Shown: one piece after another, positions 4,357 to 35,973 of the stretch | Numbering within the stretch: the stretch's first letter is position 1 | Layout: each line of letters starts with the position of its first letter | Assembly (NCBI RefSeq): GCF_003443875.1 | Contig: NZ_CP027482.1 | Coordinates: forward strand, 1,054,001 to 1,118,000 | Source: Aeromicrobium sp. A1-2 | GTDB lineage: Bacteria > Actinomycetota > Actinomycetes > Propionibacteriales > Nocardioidaceae | Direction of reading: 5' to 3' | DNA: 64,000 nt | Program-made: the position numbers and the translations under genes | Notes under the pieces: generated by a model | The model's input: the letters and a program-made list of their open reading frames with translations, nothing else | Database searches by the model: none | What the model was told of the DNA's origin: nothing

Positions 4357-4416
4357 GGATCATGTCCTGACGTTGTCGGTGGGGAATCGTGCGGCAAAGA
4401 CTCTCGTGCGGGCGAG

Positions 4417-6140: not shown

Positions 6141-6256
6141 GGCATCAGCGTGACTCGCCTGACCTGCCAAGGACCTGACTGCACGAGGTGTACCGCGCCG
6201 CCGCCTCGAGTCCGCTCCGCACAGGGCACGATGGGGGACGACCCGGAGGAGGGCCG

Positions 6257-6934
6257 ATGAGAGTGCTGCTCGTCGAGGACGAGGTTCGTCTCGCCGACAC
6301 CATCAAGCGTGGACTCGTCGACCACGGCTTCGTGGTCGACGTCGCCCATGATGGCAATGAAGGTCTCTGGTTGGCGACCGAGAAGACGTTCGACGCGATC
6401 ATCCTGGACATCATGCTGCCGGGGATGAACGGGTACGACGTGCTCAAGGGCATCCGGCAGCACCGGGTGTGGGCTCCCGTGCTGATGCTCACGGCGAAGG
6501 ACGGCGAGTTCGACCAGGTCGACGCCTTCGATCTCGGCGCCGACGACTACCTGACCAAACCGTTCAGCTTCATCGTCCTGCTGGCTCGGGTTCGCGCGCT
6601 GATACGTCGTGGAGCACCCGAGCGTCCGATGATCATGCAAGCGGGCGATCTGAGCCTCGATCCGACGACACATCGCGTGACACGCGCCGGGGCCGACGTG
6701 ACGTTGACACCCAAGGAGTTCGCCCTGCTCCAGTTCTTCATGCAGCATCCCGGAGAAGCGATGACCAAGTCGCACATCCTCGACAACGTGTGGGACGCCG
6801 CGTACGACGGCGACCTCAACGTCGTCGAGGTCTACGTGCGATACCTCCGGCTCAAGCTCGACGTCCCGTTCGGCCGCCATGCACTCGAGACCATCCGCGG
6901 CGTCGGCTATCGGCTGGACCCGGCCGGGGGTTGA
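6257..6934 (+). CDS. OmpR-family response regulator
   Basis: 225 aa from ATG 6257, placed 6 bp after a GGAGG site; a longer in-frame upstream start lacks one. The receiver domain has the acidic pair in VEDE (7-9), phospho-acceptor Asp51 in LDIMLPGMNG, Thr in LTAKD and Lys in YLTKPFSF. A winged-helix trans_reg_C domain follows (LTPKEFALLQFFMQHP ... VVEVYVRYLRLKL). Its likely partner kinase gene is the next one, but on the opposite strand, ending 1 bp after this stop. Confidence 0.93.
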   Translation: MRVLLVEDEVRLADTIKRGLVDHGFVVDVAHDGNEGLWLATEKTFDAIILDIMLPGMNGYDVLKGIRQHRVWAPVLMLTAKDGEFDQVDAFDLGADDYLTKPFSFIVLLARVRALIRRGAPERPMIMQAGDLSLDPTTHRVTRAGADVTLTPKEFALLQFFMQHPGEAMTKSHILDNVWDAAYDGDLNVVEVYVRYLRLKLDVPFGRHALETIRGVGYRLDPAGG

Positions 6935-6935
6935 G

Positions 6936-8354: not shown

Positions 8355-8370
8355 GAGCAGACGCCCTCCA

Positions 8371-21500: not shown

Positions 21501-21555
21501 AACGGCCCCGACACTGGAACACGTCCGAAGACGTCTTCACAGGTCAGGGGCCGTT
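21501..21555. terminator. stem-loop at left end of the array
   Basis: AACGGCCCC (21501-21509) pairs with GGGGCCGTT (21547-21555). An inner palindrome GAAGACGTCTTC lies at 21527-21538. A second short hairpin, GAGGG/CCCTC, follows before the core at 21590. In the pre-insertion chromosome this would have followed the glnA stop and acted as its terminator. Confidence 0.65.
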
Positions 21556-21589
21556 TTCGGCAACTACTGACAGAGGGTCTAGGCCCTCG

Positions 21590-21606
21590 GATCAGATGTC
21601 GTAATA
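21590..21606 (-). repeat. att core, copy 1 (glnA 3'-end duplicate)
   Basis: GATCAGATGTCGTAATA, identical to the end of glnA at 34550 (it encodes the last residues YYDI and the stop on the minus strand). It marks the distal boundary of the integrated array. Confidence 0.88.
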
Positions 21607-21623
21607 GTGACGACTTACCCCGT

Positions 21624-21641
21624 CTGACCTGCACAAACGTT
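21624..21641 (-). repeat. inverted arm-type repeat near left end of element A
   Basis: CTGACCTGCACAAACGTT; its complement matches 17 of 18 bases of the sequence at 26059-26076 near the left end of element B, in the opposite orientation. Both lie 17 to 35 bp inside the att cores. Similar AGGTCAG strings also occur in the stem-loops before each core. Likely an integrase arm-binding site. Confidence 0.55.
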
Positions 21642-21646
21642 GATCC

Positions 21647-22621
21647 TCAGGGTGCTGGGTACGCTCTGGGTGCGCTCGGCGTGGTGCTCCAGACCAGTTT
21701 CGAGGGGTCCCAGAGCGCTTCATCCGATCCTTTGTCGAGGGCTGGGTCGATGAATGCGGCGACCAGTTCGGCGGCTGTTGCGGCTGTGTAGGTCTCGGCG
21801 GTCGGCACGCCCTTCGCGGTGCCTGGGTAGGTGCGGTGCCAGTCCTCGGGGATGTCGATGTGGTCGAACGGTGCAAGTCCGCTGAGCAGTCGCTTGGCCT
21901 CGATCGCGGCGTGTAGTTCGGTCAGCTCCACGCTCTGGAACTGAGCGAGCACGACGAGGTCGACCAGGTCCTTGACACGGCTGCTTCGCTTGCCGCCCGG
22001 GTAGGTGTCGACCGTGGCGCAGACCTTGTCGCCGATCTGGTCGACGACGGGGTAGAGCCGGTAGGGGTGGGTGACCAAGGGGCGGCGTAGATGCAGGCGG
22101 TTGGCAGGCTCGACGGCCTCGACCTCACCGACCGGCGTGGGCCCCACGACGACGTCGACGGTGATTGTCTCGACCTGGACGTCGTCGTCGGTCTCAATGC
22201 ACGCGAAGACAAAACGGCGGGTTGCGACGCCAGGCTGGTTGTCACCCTGGCCGGTGGGTGCAGTGCGGATGAGCCGGAAGGTGAGGTGGTCACCGAGGTC
22301 GACGGCCACCAGTTCGGAGAGAGCGCGTTCGGCCTCGGCGAGATCGGTGGAGTGCAGCGTGGCCAGGTCGACGTCCTTGGTGGTGCGCGAACGAGGCACT
22401 CGGGCGAGCATGCTCATGCCGCCTTTGAGCAGCCACTCTGATTCCTCGCCGTCAGCGAAGACGCGGGAGAGGAATCTGTCGAAGCGAGCCTGCTTGATCT
22501 GGGCGCTGACCGACGCGGCGCTGACCCCTGGGCCAGCCTGAGCGGCGGCCTTCTTCGCGGCGTCCTTGATGGCCAGCTCCAGTGAACGCCAGTCGCCGTA
22601 GGGTTCAGCCGGCTCAGTCAC
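21647..22621 (-). CDS. AbiEii/AbiGii-family nucleotidyltransferase toxin
   Basis: A 324-aa protein starting at GTG 22621, which overlaps the antitoxin stop by 8 bp. The nucleotidyltransferase core is visible as LLKGGMSML (67-73) and RTTKDVDLAT (79-88), the Gly-Gly/Ser and DxD metal-binding motifs of AbiEii. In type IV AbiE systems this protein is the bacteriostatic toxin and works against phage by abortive infection or stabilises mobile elements. It ends close to the left att site, typical cargo position. Confidence 0.88.
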   Translation of the reverse strand: MTEPAEPYGDWRSLELAIKDAAKKAAAQAGPGVSAASVSAQIKQARFDRFLSRVFADGEESEWLLKGGMSMLARVPRSRTTKDVDLATLHSTDLAEAERALSELVAVDLGDHLTFRLIRTAPTGQGDNQPGVATRRFVFACIETDDDVQVETITVDVVVGPTPVGEVEAVEPANRLHLRRPLVTHPYRLYPVVDQIGDKVCATVDTYPGGKRSSRVKDLVDLVVLAQFQSVELTELHAAIEAKRLLSGLAPFDHIDIPEDWHRTYPGTAKGVPTAETYTAATAAELVAAFIDPALDKGSDEALWDPSKLVWSTTPSAPRAYPAP

Positions 22622-23270
22622 GGTCCCAGCCTTCCGGATGGACCCCGGCGAGCTCGAAGAGGTCGTTGGCCAGCGCGCTGCCGGTGGTCTTGCGTCGGTT
22701 GGCAATGGGGGAGAGGTGGTCGACCAGACGGTCCGGAGCCACGAGTTTGTCGGCACGGACCGCGTCGCGCAGAGCATCGGCCACCAGCGAGGCATCGGTG
22801 CCGATGTCGACCAGGTCGGCGATGGTCCGCTCGACGGTCAGGGTGGGTAGTCCGGCGACGGGTATGACGTCGTCACGGCTCAGCGTCCGGATGCGCAGAC
22901 GCACACCGGGCAGCCGGGTGCCTTTGCGGCTGGGGACGATGAAGTCGTAACCGGAGGGGAAGAAGTCGCCGATGTCGTGCGCGATGGCTGCGGTCGTACC
23001 CGCGGCCACGATCGCAGCGACACCGGTAGCGGCACGGGGTGCGGACGCGCCTCCGAGTGCCAGCCAGGTCGCATAGATCGACTCGTGCTCTTGGGCTGGC
23101 GATCCTGCCATCCGGTAGACCCCTTGGGCTAGGCGCTCGATGGCCCCGGTGCTCGCCATCCGGGAGAGTTGCTTGCGGGCAATGCCGGCAGCTTCGGCCT
23201 GAGCGGTCGTGAACAGACCCCACCGCCGTTCCGCGATGGACCCGAGCGCTACCAGCGTCGAATCTGCCAT
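22614..23270 (-). CDS. AbiEi-type antitoxin with N-terminal winged helix
   Basis: 218 aa from ATG 23270. The N-terminal 60 residues form a winged-helix (GLFTTAQAEAAGIARKQLSRMASTGAIERLAQGVYRM), as in AbiEi antitoxins, followed by a domain with DIGDFFPSGYDFIVPSRKG and VTVERTIADLVDIG-like segments. It would neutralise the toxin and repress the shared promoter. The short region upstream (23271-23310) is the only place for that promoter. Operon order antitoxin then toxin, overlapping, is standard. Confidence 0.87.
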   Translation of the reverse strand: MADSTLVALGSIAERRWGLFTTAQAEAAGIARKQLSRMASTGAIERLAQGVYRMAGSPAQEHESIYATWLALGGASAPRAATGVAAIVAAGTTAAIAHDIGDFFPSGYDFIVPSRKGTRLPGVRLRIRTLSRDDVIPVAGLPTLTVERTIADLVDIGTDASLVADALRDAVRADKLVAPDRLVDHLSPIANRRKTTGSALANDLFELAGVHPEGWDRD

Positions 23271-23310
23271 GACAACGATTGTACCCACTTCCGGGAACAA
23301 ATGTTGTCCT

Positions 23311-23738
23311 CTAGTCATGGCCGGGCTCGTCTTCATCGTCATCCTCAGCGACGTCGTCATCGGCCAAGGTGTCGGGGTGGGTGCCGAAGACTGAGTCGAT
23401 GGCACGCTTGGTGCGCTCTGAACTTCCCTCCATGAGATGCGTGTAGGTCCGCAGGGTGAAGCCGGGGTCGGCGTGCCCGAGATATTCGCTGACGGCCCTG
23501 ATCGTCCCGCCCTCATAGGCGCCGCGCTGGCGAAGAAGTGGCGCAGTGCGTGGCAGCTGTTCTCGCGCAGGTCGGGGATGCCGGCCCTCATCAGCGCAGG
23601 GCGCCAAATGTAGGTGTTGAAGTAGCTGCGGTTCAGCGCCTTCCTCTCCCGCGTCACCAGCAGCAACGATGTGGTCGTGGCTTTCCCGTCAGGAACGATC
23701 TTGTCAGCGATGCAGGGGATCGAGCCTGACATCGGCAC
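23311..23738 (-). pseudogene. tyrosine recombinase, C-terminal fragment, frameshifted
   Basis: One frame reads LLLVTRERKALNRSYFN and then SCHALRHFFAS, giving the box II H-x-x-R-H motif. After that the reading shifts: the second frame continues RAVSEYLGHADPGFTLRTYTHLM with the catalytic GH and Tyr, and ends in an acidic tail. The N-terminal domain and box I Arg are missing. So this was an integrase of a glnA-type element and is no longer functional. Confidence 0.85.
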
Positions 23739-23774
23739 TGCGAACCAGGCCGACTGAGAATCTCGGCCGGCAAG

Positions 23775-23918
23775 TCAGGGCCGGTATAGGGGAGTGGTCG
23801 ACAACCTCGGGTCGCTGACGGTAATCCGGGGCCGGCCCCGGCGTACCCGCAGCACATCGGACCAGGAGTCGAACCACTTGCCCCTCGTCGGCCGGTACCA
23901 GTCCTGAGGCGTCCTCAT
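23775..23918 (-). CDS. small open frame after tetR, 47 aa
   Basis: A 47-residue frame (MRTPQDWYRPTRGKW...) starts inside the tetR stop (ATGA overlap) and ends TTPLYRP. It is rich in Trp, Arg and Pro and has no family I recognise. The overlap is the only support, and it may be a remnant of a longer gene or a chance frame. Confidence 0.25.
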   Translation of the reverse strand: MRTPQDWYRPTRGKWFDSWSDVLRVRRGRPRITVSDPRLSTTPLYRP

Positions 23919-24484
23919 CCCTCCAGCAGCCGAGCGGCTGCAGATCGGGCGGCGGCGACCGCGTCGAGCCCGGGCGCCGTGCCCCGCAGGCTGAGCACCC
24001 CTTCGTGCAGGCACATCAGCTGGACCGCCAGGGCGCCCTCGCCGGAGAAGCCGCCTGCGCGCAGCGAGTCGGCGAAGAGCTCGAGGAGCCACTGCTTCTC
24101 GGCCAGCACGACGCCTCGACCGGGGTGCTCGGGCTCGGGCAGCTCAGCGAGGGCGTTGACGAAGGCGCACCCACGCTCGGCCCCCTGCAACCAGGTCGCG
24201 AGAGCGTCGAAGGGCGCTAGCACCCGCGCCACCGGGTCCGCGGCGTCGTCGCGCCGCGCCTCCACGAGCGAGCGCCACCTCCGGTCGCGCTCGAGCAGGT
24301 ACGCCGCGACGAGCTGCTGCTTCGAGCCGAACCGGTCGTAGAGGGTTCGCTTGGTCACGCCCGAGCGCTGCGCCACCAGGTCGACGCCGACCGACGTGAT
24401 GCCCTGCTCGTAGAAGAGCACGGCAGCAGCGTCGAGGATGCGACGGGCAGCGGGAGTCAGCTGGTCGGGGTCGGGCACGTCCAC
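23915..24484 (-). CDS. TetR-family regulator
   Basis: A 189-aa repressor with a canonical N-terminal helix-turn-helix: RRILDAAAVLFYEQGITSVGVDLVAQRSGVTKRTLYDRFGSKQQLVAAYL (14-63). The C-terminal ligand domain has CAFVNALAELPEPEHPG, close to AcrR/YxaF-type regulators of oxidoreductases. It is divergent from the quinone oxidoreductase gene, with 70 bp between start codons, and probably represses both. Confidence 0.9.
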   Translation of the reverse strand: MDVPDPDQLTPAARRILDAAAVLFYEQGITSVGVDLVAQRSGVTKRTLYDRFGSKQQLVAAYLLERDRRWRSLVEARRDDAADPVARVLAPFDALATWLQGAERGCAFVNALAELPEPEHPGRGVVLAEKQWLLELFADSLRAGGFSGEGALAVQLMCLHEGVLSLRGTAPGLDAVAAARSAAARLLEG

Positions 24485-24485
24485 A

Positions 24486-24514
24486 TTGACCTCACAGATC
24501 GGTATACCTACAGT
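24486..24514 (+). promoter_or_regulatory. promoter and TetR-type operator
   Basis: TTGACC, 17 bp, TACAGT form a good -35/-10 pair reading toward the oxidoreductase. The spacer contains the palindrome GGTATACC, and two ACAGATC repeats (about 24495 and 24522) flank the -10. A TetR protein from the divergent gene is the expected ligand. Confidence 0.6.
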
Positions 24515-24554
24515 GGAACTTACAGATCAGTGAAGTCTAGGTGAGGAGCAGATC

Positions 24555-25622
24555 GTGGACCAGCAGCAGATCCCCCGCACGATGCATGCCGCGGTGCTGA
24601 CCCGGCACGGCGGGCCCGAGGCCGTCGAGCTTCGGGAAGTCCCCACACCTGAGCCGGGCCCCGGCGAGGTGCTCGTGCGCGTGGGCGCCGCCGGGCTCAA
24701 CAACACCGACCTGTGGACCCGCGAGGGCGCCTACGGCAGCAGCGCCGAGGACCCCGACGCCCGCTCGGGCTGGCGCGGACCGATCGACTTCCCCCGCATC
24801 CAGGGCGGCGACGTAGCCGGCGTCGTGGTCGCAGCCGGTCCGGATGCACCGGCGGACCTGGTGGGTCGCAGGGTGCTGGTGGACCCCGCGACGCGCTACG
24901 ACCGCAACGGGCCTGACGCGCACCCGACCCACATTCTCGGCAGCGAGGACGACGGCGGGTTCGCCGAGTTCGTGGTCGTCGACGCCACGCGGGCCCACGT
25001 CGTCGACGACTCCCCGCTCAGCGACGTCGAGCTGGCCGCGCTGCCCATCGCCTACGGCACCGCCCTGGGCATGCTCGAGCGCGGTCGCGCGGCGAGCGGC
25101 GACACCGTGGTGGTCACCGGCTCCTCCGGCGGGGTGGGCCTCGCGGCCGTGCAGCTCGCCGCGGCCCGGGGCGCTCGCGTCGTGGCGGTCACCAGCGGCG
25201 TGCACGCTGAGGCGGTGCGCGCCGCTGGCGCTCACGCCACCGTCGACCGCACCAGGGGGGACCTGCGCGACGCGCTCGCCGAGGCCTGCCCCGAGGGCGT
25301 CGACGTGGTCGTCGACGTGGTCGCCGGCCCATTTGTCGCCCAGGCCCTGGGATTGCTGCGCGACGGTGGCCGGTGGGTGGTCGCGGGGGCGCTCGGCGGG
25401 CACCTGCTCGAGCTCGACGTGCGCCGCCTCTACCTGGCCAGCGTCGCCCTGGTCGGCTCGACCATGCACACGCCCGCCCACTTCGAGACCCTGGTCGACC
25501 TGGCCCGGCGCGGCGATCTGCGCCCCGTGGTGGCTCGTACCTACGACCTCGCCGATCTGGCCGCCGCGCACGCCGACCTGGAGGGGCGAGGCCTCGTCGG
25601 CAAGCTGGTCGTCACACCCTGA
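24555..25622 (+). CDS. quinone oxidoreductase-type medium-chain dehydrogenase
   Basis: 355 aa from GTG 24555, with GAGGAG 6 bp upstream. It has a GroES-like N-terminal half (GPGEVLVRVGAAGLNNTDLWTREGAYG; GGDVAGVVVAAG) and a Rossmann half (VTGSSGGVGLAAVQLAAARGARVVAVTS). No zinc-binding cysteine set is seen, fitting the zinc-less quinone oxidoreductase group. Substrates may be quinones or reactive aldehydes/enones; control by the divergent TetR protein would make it inducible. It is a passenger gene inside element A. Confidence 0.9.
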   Translation: MDQQQIPRTMHAAVLTRHGGPEAVELREVPTPEPGPGEVLVRVGAAGLNNTDLWTREGAYGSSAEDPDARSGWRGPIDFPRIQGGDVAGVVVAAGPDAPADLVGRRVLVDPATRYDRNGPDAHPTHILGSEDDGGFAEFVVVDATRAHVVDDSPLSDVELAALPIAYGTALGMLERGRAASGDTVVVTGSSGGVGLAAVQLAAARGARVVAVTSGVHAEAVRAAGAHATVDRTRGDLRDALAEACPEGVDVVVDVVAGPFVAQALGLLRDGGRWVVAGALGGHLLELDVRRLYLASVALVGSTMHTPAHFETLVDLARRGDLRPVVARTYDLADLAAAHADLEGRGLVGKLVVTP

Positions 25623-25723
25623 CCTCGGTCTCGCGCTGGGCGGCGCTCGTGCGCCGCACGAGTCGGCACTCGTACCTGGCCCTCATCACCAGAGGCGTTC
25701 GAGTTGGCTGACGGTTTGGTGCC

Positions 25724-25843
25724 TCAGGCTGCGCCGTCGTAGTCGAGGTCATGCCAGCGCGTTTCGTCGGCGGACAACTTCAGTGCGGTATCGATACCGA
25801 TGTTGGCCGTTAGTTCTTCTGGGGAGTGAACGGAGAGGCCCAT
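25724..25843 (-). CDS. very small open frame near right end of element A, 39 aa
   Basis: A 39-residue frame starts at ATG 25843 and reads MGLSVHSPEELTANIG, ending WHDLDYDGAA. The composition is protein-like (acidic, mixed) and the codons are not GC-biased at random, but there is no good ribosome site. No family is recognised; it may be the truncated end of a larger element gene. Apart from this frame and the att structures, 25623-26401 holds no gene I can support. Confidence 0.25.
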   Translation of the reverse strand: MGLSVHSPEELTANIGIDTALKLSADETRWHDLDYDGAA

Positions 25844-25915
25844 ACCTATGAGGTGCGCGAGCCCTCGCCGAGCAGTTGAAGTGCTTTAGGGGTGCACTGG
25901 GTACGCAGGCAACGG

Positions 25916-25975
25916 AAAACGGCGACTGACAACGGAAGGCATCGAAAGACGTTTCCGCAGGTCAGTCGCCGTTTT
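25916..25975. terminator. stem-loop before att copy 2
   Basis: AAAACGGCGACTGAC (25916-25930) and GTCAGTCGCCGTTTT (25961-25975) are a perfect 15-bp inverted repeat. Its arms end in T-tracts on each strand, so it can terminate in both directions. A second hairpin, GAGGG/CCCTC (25991-26005), leads into the core at 26008. Confidence 0.75.
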
Positions 25976-26007
25976 CGACAACTACTGGCAGAGGGTGAAA
26001 ACCCTCG

Positions 26008-26024
26008 GATCAGATGTCGTAATA
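26008..26024 (-). repeat. att core, copy 2 (junction of elements A and B)
   Basis: GATCAGATGTCGTAATA again, identical to copies at 21590 and 34550. It is the shared boundary of the two tandem elements. Confidence 0.88.
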
Positions 26025-26058
26025 CAGCCGGAGTTCCAACGCAACGGCAGGTCGCTAC

Positions 26059-26401: not shown

Positions 26402-27163
26402 CTATCTCGACACCGACCGGGCGAGGAGGCCGATGGAGCAGTCGTCGTCCGTCGCCTCCCGAATCTGGTGGTCCATGATTCGTTTGAGCTTCTTCTTGTA
26501 TGCAGGGTTGGCTACCGCATAGGTGGGCGCGTCAGCCACGAGCCGAAACAGTGTCTTGCACGCCCGGGCCAGCGTCTGGCGCTCGTAGTTGAACAGGCTG
26601 TCGGCAGTGCCGTCCGACATCAACACGAAGCCTGAATAGCCTTCGAGGTTGCCGCGAACAACTTGCATGGATGCTGCGGCGTCCCTCGATGTCACAAACG
26701 TGGTCACGTTGGCGAACTCGCCATTGTCAGGCGACGTGACGACTTCAAGTTCTCCGACACGTTCCGCTCCTATGACGCCATCGCCAATGTGGGCAGCAAA
26801 GAATGATTCGTCCGACAAAGCCACACATAGGAATGTCGAAGCTAGATCCTTCAGCTCGCAATCAAGTCGGGCGGCAACAACCCTCAACTGGTCGATGAGG
26901 TGTTCCAGGAGAGTGCTGCCATCGAGGATGTCAACCATCGTCTGGCCCGGACTGAGAAAGTCGAGAACGAAATTGCACCCCGCCGAAACCACTGTCTGAG
27001 CGCCATGTTCCGAGTATCGTGCTGAGCCCGCACCGTCGGCCAGGCAGAGGACCTGGACGCCGTGGCGGGCGTCGTAATTGAACCGATCCTGGCCCGGTTT
27101 GCCGTCGAGCACATGGCTCTTGCCACGCACCTGATAAGCAAACTCGCGCCACCTACTCATCAT
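26402..27163 (-). CDS. PP2C-type protein phosphatase (TerY-P triad component)
   Basis: A 253-aa metal-dependent Ser/Thr phosphatase. Metal-binding acidic motifs are seen in order: the GQDRF opening (24-28), LADGAGSA with Asp43, AAHIGDGVIG, LMSDGTADSL, and the final ATDDDCSIGLLA. The usual length of PP2C cores fits. It starts 5 bp after the vWA stop, so it is the last gene of the operon. By analogy with TerY-P triads it would reverse phosphorylation set by the kinase gene upstream. Confidence 0.88.
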   Translation of the reverse strand: MMSRWREFAYQVRGKSHVLDGKPGQDRFNYDARHGVQVLCLADGAGSARYSEHGAQTVVSAGCNFVLDFLSPGQTMVDILDGSTLLEHLIDQLRVVAARLDCELKDLASTFLCVALSDESFFAAHIGDGVIGAERVGELEVVTSPDNGEFANVTTFVTSRDAAASMQVVRGNLEGYSGFVLMSDGTADSLFNYERQTLARACKTLFRLVADAPTYAVANPAYKKKLKRIMDHQIREATDDDCSIGLLARSVSR

Positions 27164-27168
27164 CAGTC

Positions 27169-27951
27169 TCAGCCTTGGAACATCTCTTTGTAGTTCTTGT
27201 ACTTGTCGAGCTTGCTGGGGGTGACGTCCTGCTTGAGGGTCTCAACAGGCACCAACTCCTCGATGTCCTCTGGCTCGATCTCAGGGCCAGCCTCAGACCC
27301 CTCGGACGCCGACCGGGACATCGAATCCGAGAGAACCTTGAAGAACTCCTTGAACGACGAGAGGCCCTCCAGTTGCAGCGGAGGAATCTCAGGGCTGAAG
27401 TCGACGAGCGTCTCCCAGTCGAGCTCCCCGTCGACACCGTCACCGATTGCAATCGTGATGACGGTCAACTTCTTCTGGTCAGCCATCTCCTGAACTTGCT
27501 GGATGACTCGAGGCTCGTCCTTGACCCCGACGTTGGAGCCCCCGTCGGTCATCAGAACGAGTGTCGGGCGCGCAGCGCGCCGCCCGCCGGCGGCCGCCTT
27601 GTAGTAATTGCGCCTCTTTGCAAGCAACTCAAGAGCAGCATTTACTGCCCCGCTGATGTTCGTCCCGTCTCCCTTCAAATCCAGCTGGAAGTTCCGGTCG
27701 ACCGAATCGATGCTGGCGAATGGTTGAACCACCTCGGCTGTGCCGCTGAACGCAATCAAGCACAAATCAGCGCCGTACCGAGTACGTGGGTCGGCTTCAA
27801 TGTCGTCGTAGAACCTCTTGAGAGCTGCTTCAAGGTCGGGCTTCTTCGTGCCTTCGCTCATGGACCCGCTGCGGTCTACGCAGATGGCGATGGGGATGAG
27901 TTTCGACCGATTGTTCGCCATGTCCTCATCGAGGATTTTGGTGCGCGCCAT
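27169..27951 (-). CDS. TerY-like vWA domain protein
   Basis: A 260-aa protein, mostly one vWA domain. The MIDAS metal site is visible: D26-R-S28-G-S30, the Thr in GDGTNISG and the Asp in LMTDGGSNVG. No signal peptide or membrane helix, so it is cytosolic. A C-terminal acidic tail (215-245, with SEGSEAGPEIEPED) may carry phosphosites. In the TerY-P triad such proteins work with a kinase and a PP2C phosphatase, which are exactly its neighbours on both sides. Confidence 0.9.
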   Translation of the reverse strand: MARTKILDEDMANNRSKLIPIAICVDRSGSMSEGTKKPDLEAALKRFYDDIEADPRTRYGADLCLIAFSGTAEVVQPFASIDSVDRNFQLDLKGDGTNISGAVNAALELLAKRRNYYKAAAGGRRAARPTLVLMTDGGSNVGVKDEPRVIQQVQEMADQKKLTVITIAIGDGVDGELDWETLVDFSPEIPPLQLEGLSSFKEFFKVLSDSMSRSASEGSEAGPEIEPEDIEELVPVETLKQDVTPSKLDKYKNYKEMFQG

Positions 27952-27988
27952 CGGCTTTCCCTTCTCTAGTGACGATGTTTGTGCCCGG

Positions 27989-30310
27989 TCACGGGTTTCT
28001 AAACCATCTTGTGATCCTCTGGCCGAGGGACTCCGTCTGTGACGCTGAGGGGCGTCCTATGTCGGCCGGCTTCTTCGGCATTGAGGTTGTGCCTGACCTG
28101 GGCAGGGTTGCAGGCCGTGAGCTGCCAGGCGAGGAGACGCACCTAGGGTCGGAATGCTTATGTACCGGGCGGATAGCAATCCCGCGTTCATTGAGCCAAT
28201 CGATCTCACCCAGAGTGATGTATGGCTTCCCACACCGCTCGCACAGTCGGGTGAGATCCAGTGAGTGCCGCCGAGCGCGCTCTGCGTCCTTGGCGGATTG
28301 CTCCGCCACCCGCCTGACTCGGTCTGCCTCCCGCTGGGCCCGATCGGCCGCTCGCTTGGCGCGATCGGCCTCTTCTACGTCGGCTCGGCGACAAGGCCAG
28401 CAGATTCCAGCTTCAAGTGTTTCGGGCTCCCGGGGTTCTCCACAGGTTTGGCAGTTCGGAAGACATTTATTGCAAGCCGACGGAGTTCTGAACTCCTTCG
28501 CCGGGCCCTCGCCAATGCTGTACTGCGCAATGAGCTTCGCTCCTGCACACTGGGGGCAATCCAGCAGTTCTGCACCGAGTTCAGCTTTTCGACGGATGGG
28601 GAAGATCTTTAGTGACTCTGGATCGACGCTACGGTCGCTGAGCGTAGTCTTGAACTTCTCAAACGCTTCGATCCATTCATCGACAGTTTTCCGGTGTCCG
28701 TTGCTATACCGATCGCCATCGCGGTGGAACGAGTGCCAGAAGTTCCCCTTCAGTTCCCGGGACAGGTGGCTCCAGACGTAGAGCCAACGCAAGGGCGGTT
28801 GAAGATCCCGTTCGGATTTGCCGTCGAATCCGTATGGGAACAACCCGGACTTGATGTTCTGGGTCGTGTCGTCCGAGCCGCTATTCTCGTAAGGGAAAGT
28901 ACCGGTCATCATGATCATGAAAAGTAAGACCGCAATGGCGAAGTACTCGTGCTCTATCGACCGCAGTCCTTGAACGCCGCCTAGGATCTCTGGTGCAGTG
29001 AACTCGTCCCATCCCACGGGGCACGGGTAGCCCTCTACTTGGACCGAGTCGATGTCGATTATCCATGCGTCTTTCTGTTTTCCCAGCATGACGTTGTTCG
29101 GATTGATGTCGCCGATGAGAATGTTGAGATCGTGCAGCGCCTTGACCCGCTTGAGGAAGGACAGGCAGACGTCAACAAGGTCGCGGCGTGTCCAATCCGG
29201 ATACAGACGATCAAGTTCTTGGGGGATGAAGATGGTGTCGTTGAGCACGTTGGCACCTTGGGCGCGGCGCATTGTAAAACCGACGAACTCGCCCTCGTAA
29301 CTGACGGTCGACTCGGGAAAGCAGATGCCAGGTAGCCACACTTTGTGTTGAACCATGAGCTCAACCTTCTGCTTGCGGTGTGTGGTCAACTTGCCCTTCT
29401 TGAAGATCTTTGCGACAAGATGAGGCTCCCCGTCGACTTCGTAGACGCTTCCTTCCTTGCCCCTAGAGATACGTTCTCCGAGCACTAGGTTGCCGTTCGA
29501 CCCGGGTCGTTGGAAACTTGCCTCATCGCCTTCGCCGGGGAAACTCTCTACTTGTATTGCCTGGTCAGGCGGCTTGATCGCGGCAGATGGCGCGAAGGGG
29601 TTTGCGGGCGGTTGACGCCTGCGATTCTGTGCCTTCTTCGCCGGAGTTGTCTGTTTGGATTGCGGACGCAGATCAAAGGCATCGGGCCACTCCTTGAGCG
29701 TAGAAGACAGCCGATCGTATTCATCGGCCTTGCCCGGCTTGTCGGCAAGAGTCCTTTTCTTGTTCATGCCCTTGCTAAACATGAACGCAGGATTCTCGAC
29801 CTCTACGAGCCCATCGGCGGTTGCGACGCCGGCCAGGTGTGTCGTGTTCTCTTTCTGGCCGAGGAGCCGAACCTCAAGCTTCACGGTGATGTCGGCAGAC
29901 AAGAACAGGACTTCCCAGTCCATCTCGGTTGCGATTTTGGCGATGGTGCTGAATTCGGGGTCAGCTCCAAAGTCTTTGATGCCTCCGAAGTCTGTCGTTG
30001 CGAGACCATCGCAGACGAGATCCTGAACTAAGTCCTTCGCGAGCTTCGCGCGTTTTGCCAACTCGGGGTCCCGCAGTGCGCGCCGATCGGACGTTTGGTT
30101 CGTCAACTCGTTGAGGACTGCCCTTGGGATGACCAATGGATTGCTCTCGAGCGCCTCCGCACAGTTCACGACCATCTGCGGCATGCCGCCTGCGTAACCC
30201 TCTCTATTTTCTAAGAGCGCCGAGGTGTCAACGACGATCCTGCGATTGCCTCGCAGGTACTCCGTTGGGTCGATAAGTGACACCGCGTACTCATCGCTGT
30301 CCTCTGTCAT
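27989..30310 (-). CDS. PIN nuclease - protein kinase - zinc-ribbon fusion
   Basis: 773 aa from ATG 30310; a GTG at 30355 would add 15 residues and overlap the upstream gene. Domains: PIN (about 22-180) with VVDTSALLE Asp28, NELT Glu68 and FLSAD Asp140; linker; protein kinase (about 275-560) with a Gly loop ERISRGKEGSVY, K301, catalytic GDINPNN Asp401, DID 419-421 and APE-like 439-441. Then a CxxC-rich region (CPQC, CNKC, CQTCG, CWPC), an Arg/Ala coiled coil, another zinc knuckle (CERCG) and a basic tail. Kinase and zinc parts fit the TerY-P kinase; the N-terminal PIN resembles that of PhoH-like proteins and is unusual here. Confidence 0.87.
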   Translation of the reverse strand: MTEDSDEYAVSLIDPTEYLRGNRRIVVDTSALLENREGYAGGMPQMVVNCAEALESNPLVIPRAVLNELTNQTSDRRALRDPELAKRAKLAKDLVQDLVCDGLATTDFGGIKDFGADPEFSTIAKIATEMDWEVLFLSADITVKLEVRLLGQKENTTHLAGVATADGLVEVENPAFMFSKGMNKKRTLADKPGKADEYDRLSSTLKEWPDAFDLRPQSKQTTPAKKAQNRRRQPPANPFAPSAAIKPPDQAIQVESFPGEGDEASFQRPGSNGNLVLGERISRGKEGSVYEVDGEPHLVAKIFKKGKLTTHRKQKVELMVQHKVWLPGICFPESTVSYEGEFVGFTMRRAQGANVLNDTIFIPQELDRLYPDWTRRDLVDVCLSFLKRVKALHDLNILIGDINPNNVMLGKQKDAWIIDIDSVQVEGYPCPVGWDEFTAPEILGGVQGLRSIEHEYFAIAVLLFMIMMTGTFPYENSGSDDTTQNIKSGLFPYGFDGKSERDLQPPLRWLYVWSHLSRELKGNFWHSFHRDGDRYSNGHRKTVDEWIEAFEKFKTTLSDRSVDPESLKIFPIRRKAELGAELLDCPQCAGAKLIAQYSIGEGPAKEFRTPSACNKCLPNCQTCGEPREPETLEAGICWPCRRADVEEADRAKRAADRAQREADRVRRVAEQSAKDAERARRHSLDLTRLCERCGKPYITLGEIDWLNERGIAIRPVHKHSDPRCVSSPGSSRPATLPRSGTTSMPKKPADIGRPSASQTESLGQRITRWFRNP

Positions 30311-30321
30311 TCGATGCACGC

Positions 30322-32835
30322 TCAGTGCGAGTTTCCAGGCAATGGGGTAGCCCACGGCGCGTCTAGGACGTTCCCTCCTGCCGAGTCGTACTTGGGCGTA
30401 TCGGATTTTGCATCAACGAGCGGCGTGGAGACTGGGGGTGCCTGCGGTTTTGGCGTCTTCATCGACTGGCGCGGCTTGTGGGACCCCAGCCCGCTCGCTT
30501 GCTCAGGTTGGTCTAATGGATCGCCACCGACCGCTTGGACCGCAGCCTTGATTTGGTCAATCAGGTCCTTCTTTTTGCTGTCGATGGCAACGCCCGTGTC
30601 TTCGCCGAGGATGTAGTCGCGGTATTCCTTGATGAGACTGCGAATGACGAGATGCTTGAAGTTCTCTTCGTCCTTGCGGTATAGGAAGTCGTTGAAGAAG
30701 GAGATGCTCACCGACAGATACTCATGGAACCTGTCGTCGTGCTCGAGGAGTGAGTTACGGATGGCGTTGTTCGCTTCCGTGGCGATTCGCGTCAAGTAGT
30801 CCCGAAGGCGTCCTAGTTGATGCTCGTAGTTTCCAACCACTCCAAGGACTTCGCGGATGTTCTCCACCCCGTGCTTGGGTGATCCCGGCTTCAGCTCAAA
30901 GTCCTCGCTCGGGTTAGCAAGTTCCTTGAGGTGATTAGAAATCTGCAAGAACACGTTGTTACGGAAGCTGAATTTCACGTCGCTCAGCAGTTCAAGGGCT
31001 GAATCCAAGTCATCGTCCTGAACCGTGCCGCCGAACTCAACCGCAATGCTGTGGATCACGACGTCAGGGTTTTCATCGGGGTTGACGTGGAGCTTTCTAT
31101 GGAGCTCGCCTGTGTTGTCGAAGAAAATGCGAATAACGTCGTTCTTGAATTGCGTGACTTGATCGTCGTAGAACACGTCGAGCCCGCTGTATTGGGCGAT
31201 GATCTCCCGGCGAAGCCGTTGAGTCTCGTTTCGATACCAGTTGTAGTAGTCCTTTTGTCCGCGTGCTCCGGCCTCCCACTGGTCGCGACCCATAAAGAAT
31301 CCGTCCTGAATCCAGCCATCTGACCGCGAATGAATTCGTTCGACGTCCGCATCGAAGGCTGCGTACCAATCACTGTGCTCGTCGGCCTGGTCGTCCAGCT
31401 TCTTCTGGAAGGCGTTGTACTCATGGATGAGATCGCGGGCGATGCGGCTAATCTGCCGGAGGAGGAGAGCCTCCGGAATCGGGATCAGGCGGAGAAGTTC
31501 GGTTAGTGTGCGGTTCAACCCCTCCAGCGTCCCTGTTACGTCGGCTTCCCCGGCTTCGCTGGCCAGAGCGTAGGCGAAAACCTCTTGGTCCATCGTGGGC
31601 AACCGGTCGCTGACTCGTTGCAGGAGCGTGTCGAATAGTTCTGCCACTGATGTGTCGTCGATGGCCGTGTACTCGAGAACGTCGATGGGGTCGTAGCTAG
31701 CGCTATTGATTTTGCGCTCAAAATCATCCCTAAGAGTTTCTACAGTCTCGCTAAGACCTTCGGTGACGTTGATGCCGGCCGTGATCAAGTCGCCTCGACG
31801 TTTGATGCCAGGTTGAATGCGTCGGAGGTGATCGATGTTGCTAGCAATACCTTGCTTTGCGTATCCCTCTGCGTCGGTGGGTCGCATGATCGGGAAGATC
31901 TGGTCGACGCCGTCGTTGAGACCGTGCAGATGCATGTCGGCGACGGAAGCGCCGATCTCGCCCAATCCAGGCAGGTCAACGAGGCCAACCTTGACTCCCT
32001 CAAGCCCAGGGAAGGGGCAAAAGATCTTCACAGATTTGACCGCGATGTAGGAGCGGTTCGCTGGTGCTCCCGTGGCTTCCTCGGCGTCGAGGTCATCCTT
32101 GGTCGGGTAGGCGACGTAGCTGCGGAGGTCACCCAGGGGTACTTGTCTTACGGTGCCAGTGAGGAGCGACTCGTACGTGCTGAGGCTCTTCTGCGCGTCG
32201 AGGAGTCTGCCAAGGCTGTCAGTGCTGACAGAGTCGACGTTTGCCCCAAGAGTTTCGGGGAAGTCAGCCGAGCGCAGTCCGGCCAAGGTGTCTATCGATA
32301 AGGGAATGTCAACGTGTTTGTTGACAATCGCAAGAAGCGGCTGGACGTACTCAGTAATGAACGTCTTCTGGTCGCGGAAGTTCACCTCAGCGCTCTCGTC
32401 TGAACTGTTGAAGATTTCCGAACGCACCGCCGTCACCGGGAGGCCCTTGCCGGTGGGTATTTGCGTGTCGGTCAGGCCAGAGAACTTCTGTAGTGTTGAG
32501 GACTTGCCCACACGGGCTTCGCCGGAGACTCCGATGTTGACGGTCTCTCGGCTGAAGCGAACCCGAAGTGCATCCAACGTGCCCTCGCGAGCAGCGAACG
32601 AGACGAGTAGTCGGTTCAGGTCGTCGATTGCGCCGTCGATCCGGTGGAGGGCGTCCTGGTCCTTCTCGATCTCCTTGAGTTCAGCGAGCAGAGAAAGCAA
32701 GCGTTCGACGTCGCTCTTGCGGCGCGCTGCATCGTCGACCTCGCGCTGCACGGCGGGGAGAAGACTGCGGCGAGTGGCCAAGATGCCATCGACACGATCA
32801 ACGAGCCCGCGCAACTGCTCGCTGTTGATACTCAA
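30322..32835 (-). CDS. dynamin-like large GTPase
   Basis: 837 aa from TTG 32835, with GGGAGG 4 bp upstream; this start overlaps the integrase stop (TTGA). An N-terminal coiled coil (1-80) precedes a GTPase domain: P-loop GEARVGKS (105-112), a switch I Thr in the following TGKGLPVT, and G3 motif DLPGLG (287-292). The remaining 450 residues are helical, as in the stalk of bacterial dynamins, and the last 70 are low-complexity. Bacterial dynamin-like proteins remodel membranes and some protect against phage lysis. It is the first cargo gene of the operon. Confidence 0.85.
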   Translation of the reverse strand: MSINSEQLRGLVDRVDGILATRRSLLPAVQREVDDAARRKSDVERLLSLLAELKEIEKDQDALHRIDGAIDDLNRLLVSFAAREGTLDALRVRFSRETVNIGVSGEARVGKSSTLQKFSGLTDTQIPTGKGLPVTAVRSEIFNSSDESAEVNFRDQKTFITEYVQPLLAIVNKHVDIPLSIDTLAGLRSADFPETLGANVDSVSTDSLGRLLDAQKSLSTYESLLTGTVRQVPLGDLRSYVAYPTKDDLDAEEATGAPANRSYIAVKSVKIFCPFPGLEGVKVGLVDLPGLGEIGASVADMHLHGLNDGVDQIFPIMRPTDAEGYAKQGIASNIDHLRRIQPGIKRRGDLITAGINVTEGLSETVETLRDDFERKINSASYDPIDVLEYTAIDDTSVAELFDTLLQRVSDRLPTMDQEVFAYALASEAGEADVTGTLEGLNRTLTELLRLIPIPEALLLRQISRIARDLIHEYNAFQKKLDDQADEHSDWYAAFDADVERIHSRSDGWIQDGFFMGRDQWEAGARGQKDYYNWYRNETQRLRREIIAQYSGLDVFYDDQVTQFKNDVIRIFFDNTGELHRKLHVNPDENPDVVIHSIAVEFGGTVQDDDLDSALELLSDVKFSFRNNVFLQISNHLKELANPSEDFELKPGSPKHGVENIREVLGVVGNYEHQLGRLRDYLTRIATEANNAIRNSLLEHDDRFHEYLSVSISFFNDFLYRKDEENFKHLVIRSLIKEYRDYILGEDTGVAIDSKKKDLIDQIKAAVQAVGGDPLDQPEQASGLGSHKPRQSMKTPKPQAPPVSTPLVDAKSDTPKYDSAGGNVLDAPWATPLPGNSH

Positions 32836-34106
32836 GATGCCTCCCGCTCAGAATGTGGAGGCAAGTCTGTCAGCGAGGTCCGACACCTTCTGGATCGAAC
32901 CGGGACCAAGACGCCAAACCGCTGCACGCTCAAGGGCAAGAAATCGCGGCCGTCACGCGAGCAGCCGTTCGGTGCCATTTGATCGTCCTTCACTACCTGG
33001 GCCAGTCGGTCGGCGGATGGCATAGGAGTACGGCCCAACCGCGTCCCGAGTCTATCGATTTCGCGTGCGTATGGGAGGAGACTCGGAAAGATGGGAAGGT
33101 GCTCAGTTCCACGTACGTACGCATCGGAATTTTCGCCTGTCGCCTGCTCGGCGAGGGCGGCGTCGCGTCGGGCCCGCACCTCGTCGCGCAGCGCGTAGCC
33201 GGTGAAGGAAGTTCGCGCGATCGGCACGACGCGGCGCTTCTTGCCCTTGGGAAGGGTGAGGCGGGACGCCCGGCTGCCGGCGTTCGCGCCTGCGTCGACC
33301 TGGTAATCGATGTGGACATGGCAGAAGCTGTGGTCGGCACACCCGTCCAGATGGATGTCGTGAACGTCGAGCTGAAACTGCTCACCCCAGCGGGCGCCGA
33401 CGTTTGCGGCGAACTCGACCGATAGGCGGCCCCAGGCGGGGAAGCATCGGTGCAGCCGGTTTCCCAGCCCGACGGCGAGATCGGCGCTGGGTGCGTCCTC
33501 GTTGCTGATGTAGTCCAGGCCGTCGCCGCTGCGGTGAACGCTGGTCTCCCTCAGCGGGCGAATGCGAGAAGGTTTGCTGGGTGCCGGCCGCACTCCGGCA
33601 CGGGGCAATAGTTCGGCTTGCTCGGGGGAGAAGTACCGCTTTGGACTCTGGTAGCCCCAGTAGAGGAGGCCGCGGAGAGCAGTCGTGTTCGCCCGGACCA
33701 TGTTGTCGGTGCCTCCCCGTGCTCGCATGCGGTCCAGGACCGAACGGGTGATGTCCATGGCTTGCAGGTGCTCGTCACCGGCGATGCTTCTGGCGAGGCT
33801 GCGACGGATTTGGTTCTTCTGTGCCTTCTGCCAGGTCCGCCGCTTCCTGTAGGGGCTTCGGCCCTCGGTGAGGAACTCCTCGACGATGTCCTGCAGCGTC
33901 ACGACCGCGAACGGGCTCGCGGCCCGCGACAGGCGGACTGCCAGCTCTGTGGCCTTGGCGCGCGCCTCTTCGATCGATCGGCCAGCCGTGGTGTCTCCGC
34001 GGGAGCCGTCGGGCTCAATCCACTTGAGACGGTAATAGCCCTTCGCGCTCGGAGCGTAGATGGCGACGAGGCCGACAGTCTGGATCGGCGCGTTGCGCGA
34101 GCTCAC
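32832..34106 (-). CDS. tyrosine integrase-like protein, box II not visible
   Basis: 424 aa from GTG 34106, overlapping the excisionase stop (GTGA). The N-terminal arm/core-binding region (60-200) and the box I segment GARWGEQFQLDV with the catalytic Arg are present, as is PKGKKRRVVPI with the beta-hairpin Lys. Past about residue 330 the expected HxLRH, GH and Tyr motifs are not found in any of the three minus frames. So the recombinase is probably inactive, or the end has been replaced. Its stop still abuts the GTPase start exactly, so the present end is part of the operon. Confidence 0.75.
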   Translation of the reverse strand: MSSRNAPIQTVGLVAIYAPSAKGYYRLKWIEPDGSRGDTTAGRSIEEARAKATELAVRLSRAASPFAVVTLQDIVEEFLTEGRSPYRKRRTWQKAQKNQIRRSLARSIAGDEHLQAMDITRSVLDRMRARGGTDNMVRANTTALRGLLYWGYQSPKRYFSPEQAELLPRAGVRPAPSKPSRIRPLRETSVHRSGDGLDYISNEDAPSADLAVGLGNRLHRCFPAWGRLSVEFAANVGARWGEQFQLDVHDIHLDGCADHSFCHVHIDYQVDAGANAGSRASRLTLPKGKKRRVVPIARTSFTGYALRDEVRARRDAALAEQATGENSDAYVRGTEHLPIFPSLLPYAREIDRLGTRLGRTPMPSADRLAQVVKDDQMAPNGCSRDGRDFLPLSVQRFGVLVPVRSRRCRTSLTDLPPHSEREAS

Positions 34107-34417
34107 GCTGTCACCGCCCTCTTCGTGCGGGGCTTGTAGGTGCTGGCTTTCACCTTCGTGTCGGCGGCGCGGATGGGCGACGGCGTGGGGCGCGCCGTCG
34201 GGTTCTTGCGACGACTCGGACGGCTGCGGTCGGCGACGGGTAGCGCGCTGAACCAGGCGAGGACCTCGTCCCGGAGCCAGAGGTTGCTCGAGAAGCCAGC
34301 CTTGGGCTTCGGGAAGGTGGTGCCGTAGGTGTGTTCGCGGGCGCGGTCGACGCTCAAGAGGAGGACGGTGGCGACGTGGTCGATGGTCCAGATGGGGGAG
34401 TTCAGGTCGATGTTCAT
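34103..34417 (-). CDS. excisionase-like small DNA-binding protein
   Basis: 104 aa from ATG 34417 (a TTG at 34462 would extend it). The N-terminal part is a MerR-like winged helix of the HTH_17/Xis type: WTIDHVATVLLLSVDRAREHTYG and then NLWLRDEVLAWFSALP. The C-terminal 40 residues are basic and disordered (RRKNPTARPTPSP). It overlaps the integrase start by 3 bp, the usual xis-int order. It would steer recombination at the glnA att sites. Confidence 0.78.
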   Translation of the reverse strand: MNIDLNSPIWTIDHVATVLLLSVDRAREHTYGTTFPKPKAGFSSNLWLRDEVLAWFSALPVADRSRPSRRKNPTARPTPSPIRAADTKVKASTYKPRTKRAVTA

Positions 34418-34466
34418 GGACCGGACGGTGTGGATCAGCGCGGAGACGCCAATCGTGCACAACGAA

Positions 34467-34513: not shown

Positions 34514-34549
34514 GCGTCTGCGCAGGTCAGGGCAGGTTTCTGCCCCTTT

Positions 34550-34566
34550 GATCAGATGTCGTAATA
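34550..34566 (-). repeat. att core, copy 3 (glnA 3' end)
   Basis: GATCAGATGTCGTAATA, forming the last codons and stop of glnA. The insertion leaves the glnA reading frame intact. Confidence 0.9.
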
Positions 34567-35973
34567 GAGCTCGAACTCGTGCGGGTGCGGCCGCAGCTGC
34601 ACGGGCAGGATCTCCTCGGTGCGCTTGTACTCGATCCAGGTCTCGATCAGGTCGGGCGTGAATACGTCACCGGCCGTCAGGAACTCGTGATCGGCCTCGA
34701 GCGCGTCGAGCACGTCGTTGAGGGAGGTCGGCACCATGTCGATGGCTTCGTACTCCTCGGGCGGCAGCTCGTAGATGTTCTTGTCGATCGGGGCAGGCGG
34801 CTCGATCTTGTTCTTGATGCCGTCGATGCCGGCCAGCAGCAACGCCGAGAAGGCGAGGTACGGGTTGGCCGACGGGTCGGGGCAACGGAACTCGATGCGC
34901 TTGGCCTTGGGGTTCGAGCCGGTGATCGGGATGCGGACGCAGGCCGAGCGGTTGCGGGCCGAGTACACGAGCGCGATGGGGGCCTCGAAGCCCGGCACCA
35001 GGCGGCGGTACGAGTTGACCGACGGGTTGGTGAAGGCCAGCAGCGACGGCGCGTGCTTGAGGATGCCACCGATGTAGTGACGCGCCATGTCGGACAGTCC
35101 ACCGTAGCCGGTCTCGTCGTAGAACAGCGGCTTGCCGTCGTTCCAGATCGACTGGTGCACGTGCATGCCCGAACCGTTGTCACCGAAGATCGGCTTCGGC
35201 ATGAACGTGACGGTCTTGTCGTTGGCCCACGCCGTGTTGCGCACGATGTACTTGAACTTCATGACGTCGTCCGCAGCCTTGAGCAGCGTGTCGAAGCGGT
35301 AGTTGATCTCGGCCTGACCGCCGGTGCCGACCTCGTGGTGTCCGCGCTCGAGCGTGAGCCCCGCGTCGGTGAGGTTGCTCATCATGTCGTTGCGGAGGTC
35401 CGCGGTGCGGTCCGTCGGTGCAACCGGGAAGTAGCCGCCCTTGTAGCGGACCTGGTAGCCACGGTTCTCGTCGACCGCGTCGCCGGTGGACCATGCGGCT
35501 TCGCTCGACTGGATCTCGTAGAACGACTTGTTGGCGGCGGTCCCGTAGTTGACCCGGTCGAAGATGTAGAACTCCGCCTCGGGCGCGAAGAAGGCAGTGT
35601 CACCGATGCCGGTGGTCGCGAGGTAGGCCTCGGCCTTGCGGGCGATGTTGCGCGGATCGCGGGAGTACGCCTCGCCGGTGATCGGGTCGTGCACGAAGAA
35701 GTCCATCGCGATGGTCTTGCGCGCCTTGAACGGATCGATGTACGCGGTCTTGACGTCCGGGAAGAGCACCATGTCGGACTGGTCAATGGTCTGGAATCCG
35801 CGGATCGAGGAGCCGTCGAAAGCCACTCCGCTCTCGACCATGGCGGCGTCGAACGTCGATGCCGGCAGGGTGACCTGCTGCTGGATGCCGGGCAAGTCGG
35901 TGAAACGGACGTCGAGGTACTCGACACCTTCGTCCTTGATGAACTTGAACAGCTCGTCGGCATTGCCGAACAT
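34552..35973 (-). CDS. glnA: glutamine synthetase type I
   Basis: A 473-aa GlnA that makes glutamine from glutamate, ammonium and ATP. Signatures: FDGSSIRGF near residue 53, [24 protein letters not shown] (ATP/glutamate binding), [23 protein letters not shown], and adenylylation-site region NIYELPPEE with the conserved Tyr near 393. The C-terminus YYDI and its stop double as the att core of the neighbouring elements. A four-part GlnR box lies about 90 bp upstream, so transcription is nitrogen-regulated. Confidence 0.98.

Follow-up and report, generated by a model that had tools for sequence, protein, structure and literature searches.

A mobile operon combining a PIN-kinase fusion, a vWA protein, a PP2C phosphatase, and a dynamin-like GTPase in Aeromicrobium sp. 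A1-2: a possible phosphorylation-controlled conflict module with exchangeable, tagged partners

Here we describe a four-gene operon of Aeromicrobium sp. A1-2, contained in a 64,000-nucleotide stretch of contig NZ_CP027482.1 (positions 1,054,001 to 1,118,000; hereafter the window), which encodes a dynamin-like GTPase, a PIN domain fused to a Ser/Thr kinase with zinc ribbons, a von Willebrand factor A (vWA) protein, and a PP2C phosphatase. Judged by comparison with related loci, the conserved unit is composed of PIN, kinase, vWA, and PP2C, and dynamin is an exchangeable partner that has switched cores with its association to a core being kept despite the exchange. We interpret the operon as a mobile, phosphorylation-controlled conflict module, most likely directed against phages, an interpretation to which we give slightly less than an even chance. 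A more specific and tentative proposal, which we place somewhat below even, is that of a plug-in immune switch in which a kinase/phosphatase/RNase core takes unrelated sensors or substrates, including dynamin, via a short peptide tag at one terminus, with a distinct tag (PWxTPLP or KIxxW) in each of at least two kinase clades; since each clade has its own tag, dynamins would have switched tag on switching core.

The operon (26402-32835) consists of four intact minus-strand genes (57-59% GC), with gaps of 11 bp between the dynamin and PIN-kinase genes and 5 bp between the vWA and PP2C genes; individual features are summarized in Table 1. An initial annotation of the window had described these four adjacent genes, assigned the last three to the TerY-P phosphorylation triad, regarded the PIN fusion and dynamin as lying outside that triad, and placed the operon in a mobile element. 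All of this holds: the metal ion-dependent adhesion site (MIDAS) of the vWA protein, the PP2C phosphatase, and a kinase with a C-terminal zinc ribbon are each present, PIN and dynamin are both extras, and the operon lies on an island between direct repeats together with an integrase-like stretch. The vWA protein matches Pfam VWA (E 5e-12) with DxSxS, T, and D all in place, the PP2C gene matches PP2C_2 (E 6e-43), and the kinase matches Pkinase (E 1e-9). Kinase residues K301, D401, N406, and D421 are kept in 48/48 aligned rows and the cysteine pairs in 45-46/48, and the PIN acids are conserved in all 21 aligned rows (D117 and D140) or in 20 of them with one gap each (D28 and E68). PIN_4 was matched in 23 of 48 relatives at E <= 0.01. 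A structure search with PIN-kinase returned a list filled by kinases, and a PDB sequence search with the kinase gave weak matches. A GTG start for the PIN-kinase gene at 30355 was rejected because the database protein begins at the ATG and relatives start in that region. Sites found in a promoter and terminator scan were no more frequent than in shuffled sequences.

The dynamin-like GTPase carries G1 (GEARVGKS, aa 105) and G3 (DLPG, aa 287) motifs, with a helical bundle after the G domain, and its GTPase residues are kept in 82/82 aligned rows. The canonical dynamin G4 motif is N/TKxD; here an invariant N356 lies near the expected position, as judged by eye, with no KxD after it. Conserved motifs and predicted fold, namely a GTPase domain with G1 and G3 and a long helical stalk, place the protein in the dynamin superfamily. 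The folds closest to the predicted model, which has a low-confidence tail from aa 772, are those of membrane dynamins and mitofusin; a PDB sequence search with the dynamin returned nothing useful.

Composition of the core was compared across eleven loci containing PIN and kinase: the window, Demequina rhizosphaerae (L008), Clostridia bacterium MS499-83 (L010), a Paenarthrobacter plasmid (L035), a Lysinibacillus plasmid (L036), Fusobacterium vincentii (L037), L038, L039, L092, L098, and L099. The vWA and PP2C genes were found in the same gene run as PIN/kinase in 11/11 loci, spanning Actinomycetota, Bacillota, and Fusobacteriota, a count which omits L034 (no vWA found) and L028 (no vWA or PP2C found) and was made with vWA and PP2C profiles built, like the GTPase and third-gene profiles used further below, partly from the loci on which they were run. 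PIN and kinase form one fused protein in seven of these loci; in the four others (L008, L092, L098, and L099) a PIN gene of its own precedes the kinase gene. Dynamin is present in three, and the four-gene set is therefore the less common form. The rare adjacency that the initial annotation had named as a refutation does not apply to PIN, kinase, vWA, and PP2C, which recur together throughout; among the loci compared, the full set occurs outside the window in two named genomes, L008 and L010. PIN-kinase was identified in 3/245 family genomes and 3/196 order genomes (own included), and a search in the family of the L092 genome yielded that genome alone (1/197). It matches 49 plasmid records, three of which were examined; a phage-record search gave one partial match, and PHROG families match the kinase, vWA, and PP2C of the window.

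Several of these loci show further features. Upstream of the Clostridia four-gene set lie a serine recombinase and an extra protein kinase (L010, 3495-6047). The Fusobacterium record (L037, NZ_CP084075.1), a plasmid entry of 2.1 Mb, reads like a chromosome and encodes a protein with a helix-turn-helix and a PIN-like second half (profile match; 7472-8380) directly upstream of its PIN-kinase triad. On a 316-kb phage contig from IMG/VR (L034, 7094-8982), PP2C adjoins a short kinase-like fragment.

Exchange of the dynamin is evident from the comparison of the window with Demequina, in which the dynamins are 73-77% identical versus 35% for the kinases, 33% for the vWA proteins, and 34% for the PP2C phosphatases; it is because the dynamins are this similar and the cores are not that we consider dynamin exchangeable. 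The Demequina triad is 72-75% (kinase), 83% (vWA), and 63% (PP2C) identical to that of L092, a locus which contains no dynamin and has an unrelated 570-aa protein (P0180) in its position. Dynamin-linked kinases do not form one clade in the kinase tree (at least three changes; approximately unbiased test, p-AU 8e-29; L010 is a long branch), and fused and split core types mix in the dynamin tree (p-AU 1e-4). Metagenomic dynamin-kinase linkage, taken as source contigs of identical size, was computed on 95 of the best 120 dynamins (234 in all) and 173 kinases (53 plus the best 120 of 611), with dynamins sorted by presence of the S1 RNA-binding domain (PF00575) that some family members carry at the C-terminus where the window type has a tag tail; this status is a Pfam flag, and P0029 has an S1-like tail without it. 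Among the matches listed, linkage was found for 9/30 close dynamins without S1 (own included) versus a mean of 0.24 at shifted sizes, for 0/32 S1-bearing dynamins (0.30 expected), and for 1/33 more distant dynamins (0.13 expected).

The motif near the dynamin C-terminus co-varies with the type of kinase. PWxTP[LI]P is found in all five dynamins linked to window-clade kinases (window, P0012, P0014, P0022, and P0025) and SKIxxW in all four linked to a split PIN and kinase (L008, P0010, P0016, and P0028); neither group has the motif of the other, and the sister dynamins P0012 and P0013 (support 100/99) differ in tail, that of P0013 reading SKIQSW. The tails of the window and Demequina dynamins include PWATPLPGNSH and SKIAGWNVAP, respectively. 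P0009 has PWATPLP as well, and under the tag rule a fused core would be expected for it and a split core for P0013. P0180 contains four copies of SKIxx[FWY] (mean 0.008 and maximum 1 in 5000 shuffles) and has a short C-terminal similarity to the partner protein of L099 (E 1e-6 over 36 residues), and dynamin therefore seems to take the place of a partner protein that bears a tag. In L098 the gene next upstream of PIN starts, if read from an inner Met, with MGKIVGW, and in L099 it starts with MRKIVGWG. KIxxW occurs in 4/125 mechanically chosen open reading frames (ORFs) of at least 150 aa from nine loci and in 4/45 operon members of the 11 loci, in every case in the gene directly upstream of a separate PIN, whether or not that gene encodes a dynamin; the looser KIxx[FWY] is found additionally in three operon members from L036 and L037, and SKIxGY in five split-type kinases. 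These patterns suggest that a short end-tag plugs exchangeable partners into the switch. The vWA tail was also considered as the split-type tag and was rejected, as its G[IL]xxW ending is found with both fused and split kinases.

The kinases themselves have distinctive C-termini. All 17 window-group kinases, own included, end in a basic aromatic helix (..RITRWFRNP pattern), Trp is present in the last 16 residues of 28/48 relatives versus about 20% expected from composition, and the helical moments of the tails are high in many, not all. Among split-type kinases, 45/67 have a hydrophobic C-terminal tail (6% in shuffles), and the L008 kinase has one as judged by eye. These are hints that kinase tails may work at the membrane. 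The separate PIN proteins of L008, L092, L098, and L099 have a WW pair near the C-terminus that recalls the window-type Trp tail.

The operon occupies an 8.5-kb island adjoining the glnA 3' end. The window contains exactly three copies of a 17-bp sequence (21590, 26008, and 34550), which 100 shuffles did not produce once; the second direct repeat falls within 97 bp that match 21510-21606 at 81% identity, a stretch that is common to the far ends of both islands described here and resembles post-glnA sequence in some relatives. In three of 20 same-genus genomes (L072, L074, and L085), the bases after glnA align to the window from 26028 to about 25900, past the second repeat copy, with those of L072 and L085 aligning also beyond the third repeat copy. 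In L073 and L089 the alignment instead continues for about 40 bp after glnA and enters the end of island A; the remaining 15 genomes yielded no additional alignment of 100 bp or more, one L084 stretch excepted. From the threefold repeat and the sister-genome alignments, we consider the region to be a tandem pair of islands inserted at glnA: the operon, the integrase-like stretch, and the weak excisionase-like ORF lie on island A (26.0-34.55 kb), and AbiE lies on island B (21.6-26.0 kb). Island B (21584-26028) encodes AbiEii/AbiEi, a TetR regulator, and a zinc dehydrogenase. Other cargo at the glnA site includes a type I restriction system (L076) and a phage integrase gene (L084), L084 and L090 have extra repeat-like copies at distances of 4.7 and 5.1 kb, and the glnA 3' end looks like an integration hotspot in the genus. 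GmrSD is encoded about 6 kb from the L038 triad; together with the tandem AbiE island and the L076 restriction system, it provides a defence context that is circumstantial.

We infer a tag-docked phospho-switch that would control an RNase and is probably anti-phage. Its core would be a PIN ribonuclease joined to, or encoded beside, a Ser/Thr kinase with zinc ribbons, controlled by the TerY-like vWA protein and reset by the PP2C phosphatase. Dynamin would be an exchangeable input partner, docked by the motif at the tip of its disordered tail, which the matching kinase type may recognise or phosphorylate (PWxTPLP for the window clade, KIxxW for the split type). Infection or envelope damage could lead to GTP-dependent dynamin assembly, the clustered tails could recruit and activate the kinase, and phosphorylation could free PIN to cut RNA and stop growth, until PP2C resets the switch. 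Dynamin could either report envelope damage or assemble on membranes. From the membrane effector that the initial annotation had added to a kinase/phosphatase switch and an RNase, we depart in part: it is not the sole reading, as dynamin may also be a tagged substrate or sensor.

A number of observations weigh against this interpretation. The neighbouring defence genes are circumstantial, and eight of the triad loci contain no dynamin. Close dynamins are rare, with a profile match in 1/396 phylum genomes, that of the window only. The window dynamin has no transmembrane-like or hydrophobic segment, for which reason a transmembrane dynamin was rejected. The Trp tail of fused PIN-kinases is not found in L010, L036, and L037, and three of four dynamin-linked split kinases (P0191, P0192, and P0194) have no hydrophobic tail. 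With respect to the tags, PWxTP[LI]P is present in 5/7 of all dynamins linked to fused PIN-kinases, the divergent P0042 (assigned as fused by identical source-contig size) and L010 (by locus) being without it, and the unlinked dynamin P0026 has neither motif. Seven of the nine tag assignments rest on identical source-contig size, with the window and L008 assigned by locus. The motifs were defined post hoc; SKIxx[FWY] as first defined was found in 0/2 of the newly fetched split-type loci L098 and L099, and the relaxation to KIxxW was made after their inspection.

A different function for dynamin, that of a GTP-driven scaffold working with PIN on RNA or ribosomes and not as a membrane machine, would account for the S1 domain that relatives carry in place of the tag tail, and the absence of a hydrophobic segment is in keeping with it. 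Dynamins of the S1 type include L009 (7968-10517) and L011 (2266-5043), both S1-like by eye, as well as P0031-P0036 and others, and the difference in kinase linkage between S1-bearing and close non-S1 dynamins, among the matches listed, also points this way. Given that the closest folds are those of membrane dynamins and mitofusin, and that many kinase C-termini look membrane-seeking, we consider such a scaffold somewhat unlikely.

We also consider it unlikely that the operon serves a general stress or xenobiotic response, in which the triad would sense metal or damage and PIN would trim RNA to slow growth, phage defence being secondary. In the portions of the articles available, to which all of our citations refer, TerY-P triads are described as taking part in tellurite resistance, with a hypothesised function as metal-sensing switches (PMC11090510), and are linked to xenobiotic-damage repair (PMC4978471). 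However, TerD gave no match in the window genome (2/14 control genomes were positive), and the cassette is rare, patchy, and located on a small island beside AbiE; in a sister genome the same site is occupied by a restriction system.

Maintenance of the island by addiction or exclusion, with a PIN toxin restrained by kinase, PP2C, and vWA, appears quite improbable. PIN domains are common toxins and the island is small with an integrase-like remnant, yet we recognised no small antitoxin-like gene within the operon, PIN is partnered by conserved enzymes, and the exchange of dynamin between cores would go unexplained. That dynamin is unconnected with the core and simply shares a defence island with it, as the dynamin-free majority of triad loci and the close relatives L009 and L011 (no triad within the flanking DNA covered) might indicate, is very improbable in view of the 11-bp gap in the window, the 4-bp overlap of dynamin and PIN in L008, the association kept with different core types, and the co-variation of tail and kinase.

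Table 1. Location of operon, island, and flanking features in the window (positions are those of the 64,000-nucleotide stretch).
Feature	Position	Strand	Remark
Dynamin-like GTPase, 837 aa	30322..32835	-	motifs and predicted fold
Dynamin C-terminal tail motif PWATPLP (aa 827-833)	30337..30357	-	common to 4 other dynamins linked to window-clade kinases
PIN - protein kinase - zinc-ribbon protein, 773 aa from ATG	27989..30310	-	catalytic residues conserved
PIN domain (aa about 22-163), acids D28, E68, D117, D140	29822..30247	-	
Kinase domain (aa about 262-557), K301, D401, N406, D421	28640..29527	-	
Zinc-ribbon cysteine pairs (aa 585-693)	28232..28558	-	
PIN-kinase C-terminal basic aromatic amphipathic helix (aa 762-771, ..RITRWFRNP)	27998..28027	-	possible membrane/docking tail
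vWA protein, 260 aa; MIDAS DRSGS (aa 26), T (GTNIS, aa 96), D (MTDGG, aa 134)	27169..27951	-	
PP2C phosphatase, 253 aa; ADGAGS, GDG, SDG, DD motifs	26402..27163	-	
Direct repeat 1, glnA 3' end (glnA 34552-35973, minus strand), outer end of island A	34544..34570	.	
Direct repeat 2, island A end and island B start	26002..26028	.	
Direct repeat 3, far end of island B	21584..21610	.	
Tyrosine-integrase-like stretch (P0005 aa 136-415)	33216..34055	-	PHROG_1 positions 117-343 of 611; profile remainder unmatched in frame
Weak excisionase-like ORF	34103..34462	-	PHROG_66, E 0.0015
AbiEii and AbiEi genes, island B	21647..23738	-	context

A genome-contig scan with the dynamin yielded 22 loci, and a single-protein search matched 7/296 class genomes including the window's own, the others at 37% identity or less. 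Seventeen distant dynamin loci (L012-L027 and L029) have a downstream adjacent GTPase gene in 17/17 cases, including 11/11 outside the set from which its profile was built, and a third gene in 16/17, the seventeenth being cut by a contig end. Five of these GTPases were scanned: that of L015 passes the Pfam DO-GTPase2 cut-off, that of L013 falls below it, and three were unmatched. Records carrying this dynamin - GTPase - third protein operon are named as actinobacteria, spirochaetes, Prochloron, Deltaproteobacteria, and others. In L028 (Eggerthellales, 3350-8112), a weak NYN match and a protein kinase lie upstream of a dynamin start, possibly the same idea with another nuclease; no vWA or PP2C was found on this contig, which stops within the dynamin. 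Scans of viral contigs gave no relatives with the dynamin alignment, one with the fused kinase, and none with the split kinase.

Literature searches, with most subscription journals outside their reach, revealed among the papers listed neither a PIN-TerY-P-dynamin set nor a name for one, in agreement with the treatment of the four genes as a candidate new system in the initial annotation, and the available portions of PMC3710099, PMC7824862, and PMC12839542 contain nothing on such a set. In the articles cited below, TerY-P triads occur in several defence contexts, with sensing and action only hypothesised. If the tag rule is true, kinase substrates and sensors could be named from sequence alone, and the two-way specificity could be tested by tag swap. 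The rule would furthermore tie dynamin to a phospho-regulated RNase, identify a peptide tag as a route by which parts are swapped between defence modules, and open the part that this dynamin family plays in bacterial conflict to direct testing.

The TerY-P triad has been defined and reported both as a component of CoCoNuTs and as a defence system in its own right, the latter with an OB-fold kinase (PMC11090510); TerY-P is reported to act against T7-like phages (PMC7699616), and a TerY-P island is present in Helicobacter (PMC4978471). The window operon resembles the triad in its MIDAS vWA, PP2C, and Ser/Thr kinase followed by a zinc ribbon, encoded in one operon and found in mobile or defence contexts, but differs from it in having a PIN domain at the N-terminus of the kinase (a separate PIN elsewhere), an upstream tagged partner, and no TerD. 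It likewise shares vWA, phosphatase, and kinase with the stand-alone TerY-P defence of Gao et al. 2020 (PMC11090510, PMC7699616), the kinase of which, unlike that of the window, ends in an OB-fold (PMC11090510); PIN and dynamin are further differences. The C-terminal part of the window kinase consists of cysteine pairs, a long helix, and an aromatic tail, and does not qualify as an OB-fold.

One type of DO-GTPase system includes a kinase in 10% of cases, frequently together with zinc ribbon, PP2C, and vWA (PMC7159879). In the GAP1-N2 systems, a GTPase gene is linked to these same partners in actinobacteria (PMC7159879), as in the window, whose GTPase is instead dynamin-like with no DO-GTPase match and no GAP1 among the scanned neighbours; P0001 and P0005 had no Pfam match, and no DO-GTPase or GAP1 name appeared among the ORFs scanned (19.0-40.4 kb). 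CoCoNuTs of type II and III-A also have a TerY-P triad as an associated module and are predicted to act on RNA (PMC11090510), whereas no McrBC-like GTPase/nuclease or CnuH helicase was found among the scanned flanking ORFs. Membership of the operon in either the DO-GTPase or the CoCoNuT systems was rejected, since the neighbours scanned include no such genes.

With PADLOC (E <= 0.001), dynamin, vWA, and PP2C were unmatched and the kinase gave only partial matches. LeoBC and Eleos are bacterial dynamins linked to phage resistance; the window dynamin aligned to the PADLOC LeoBC profile at E 0.015 over only 91 aa and is not classed as Eleos/LeoBC. DynA of B. subtilis is likewise linked to phage resistance (PMC8844932), and the window dynamin shares with it membership in the dynamin superfamily and a putative phage-related setting. 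Unlike the known phage-resistance dynamins, it belongs to a distinct sequence family and is coupled to a kinase/phosphatase/RNase module.

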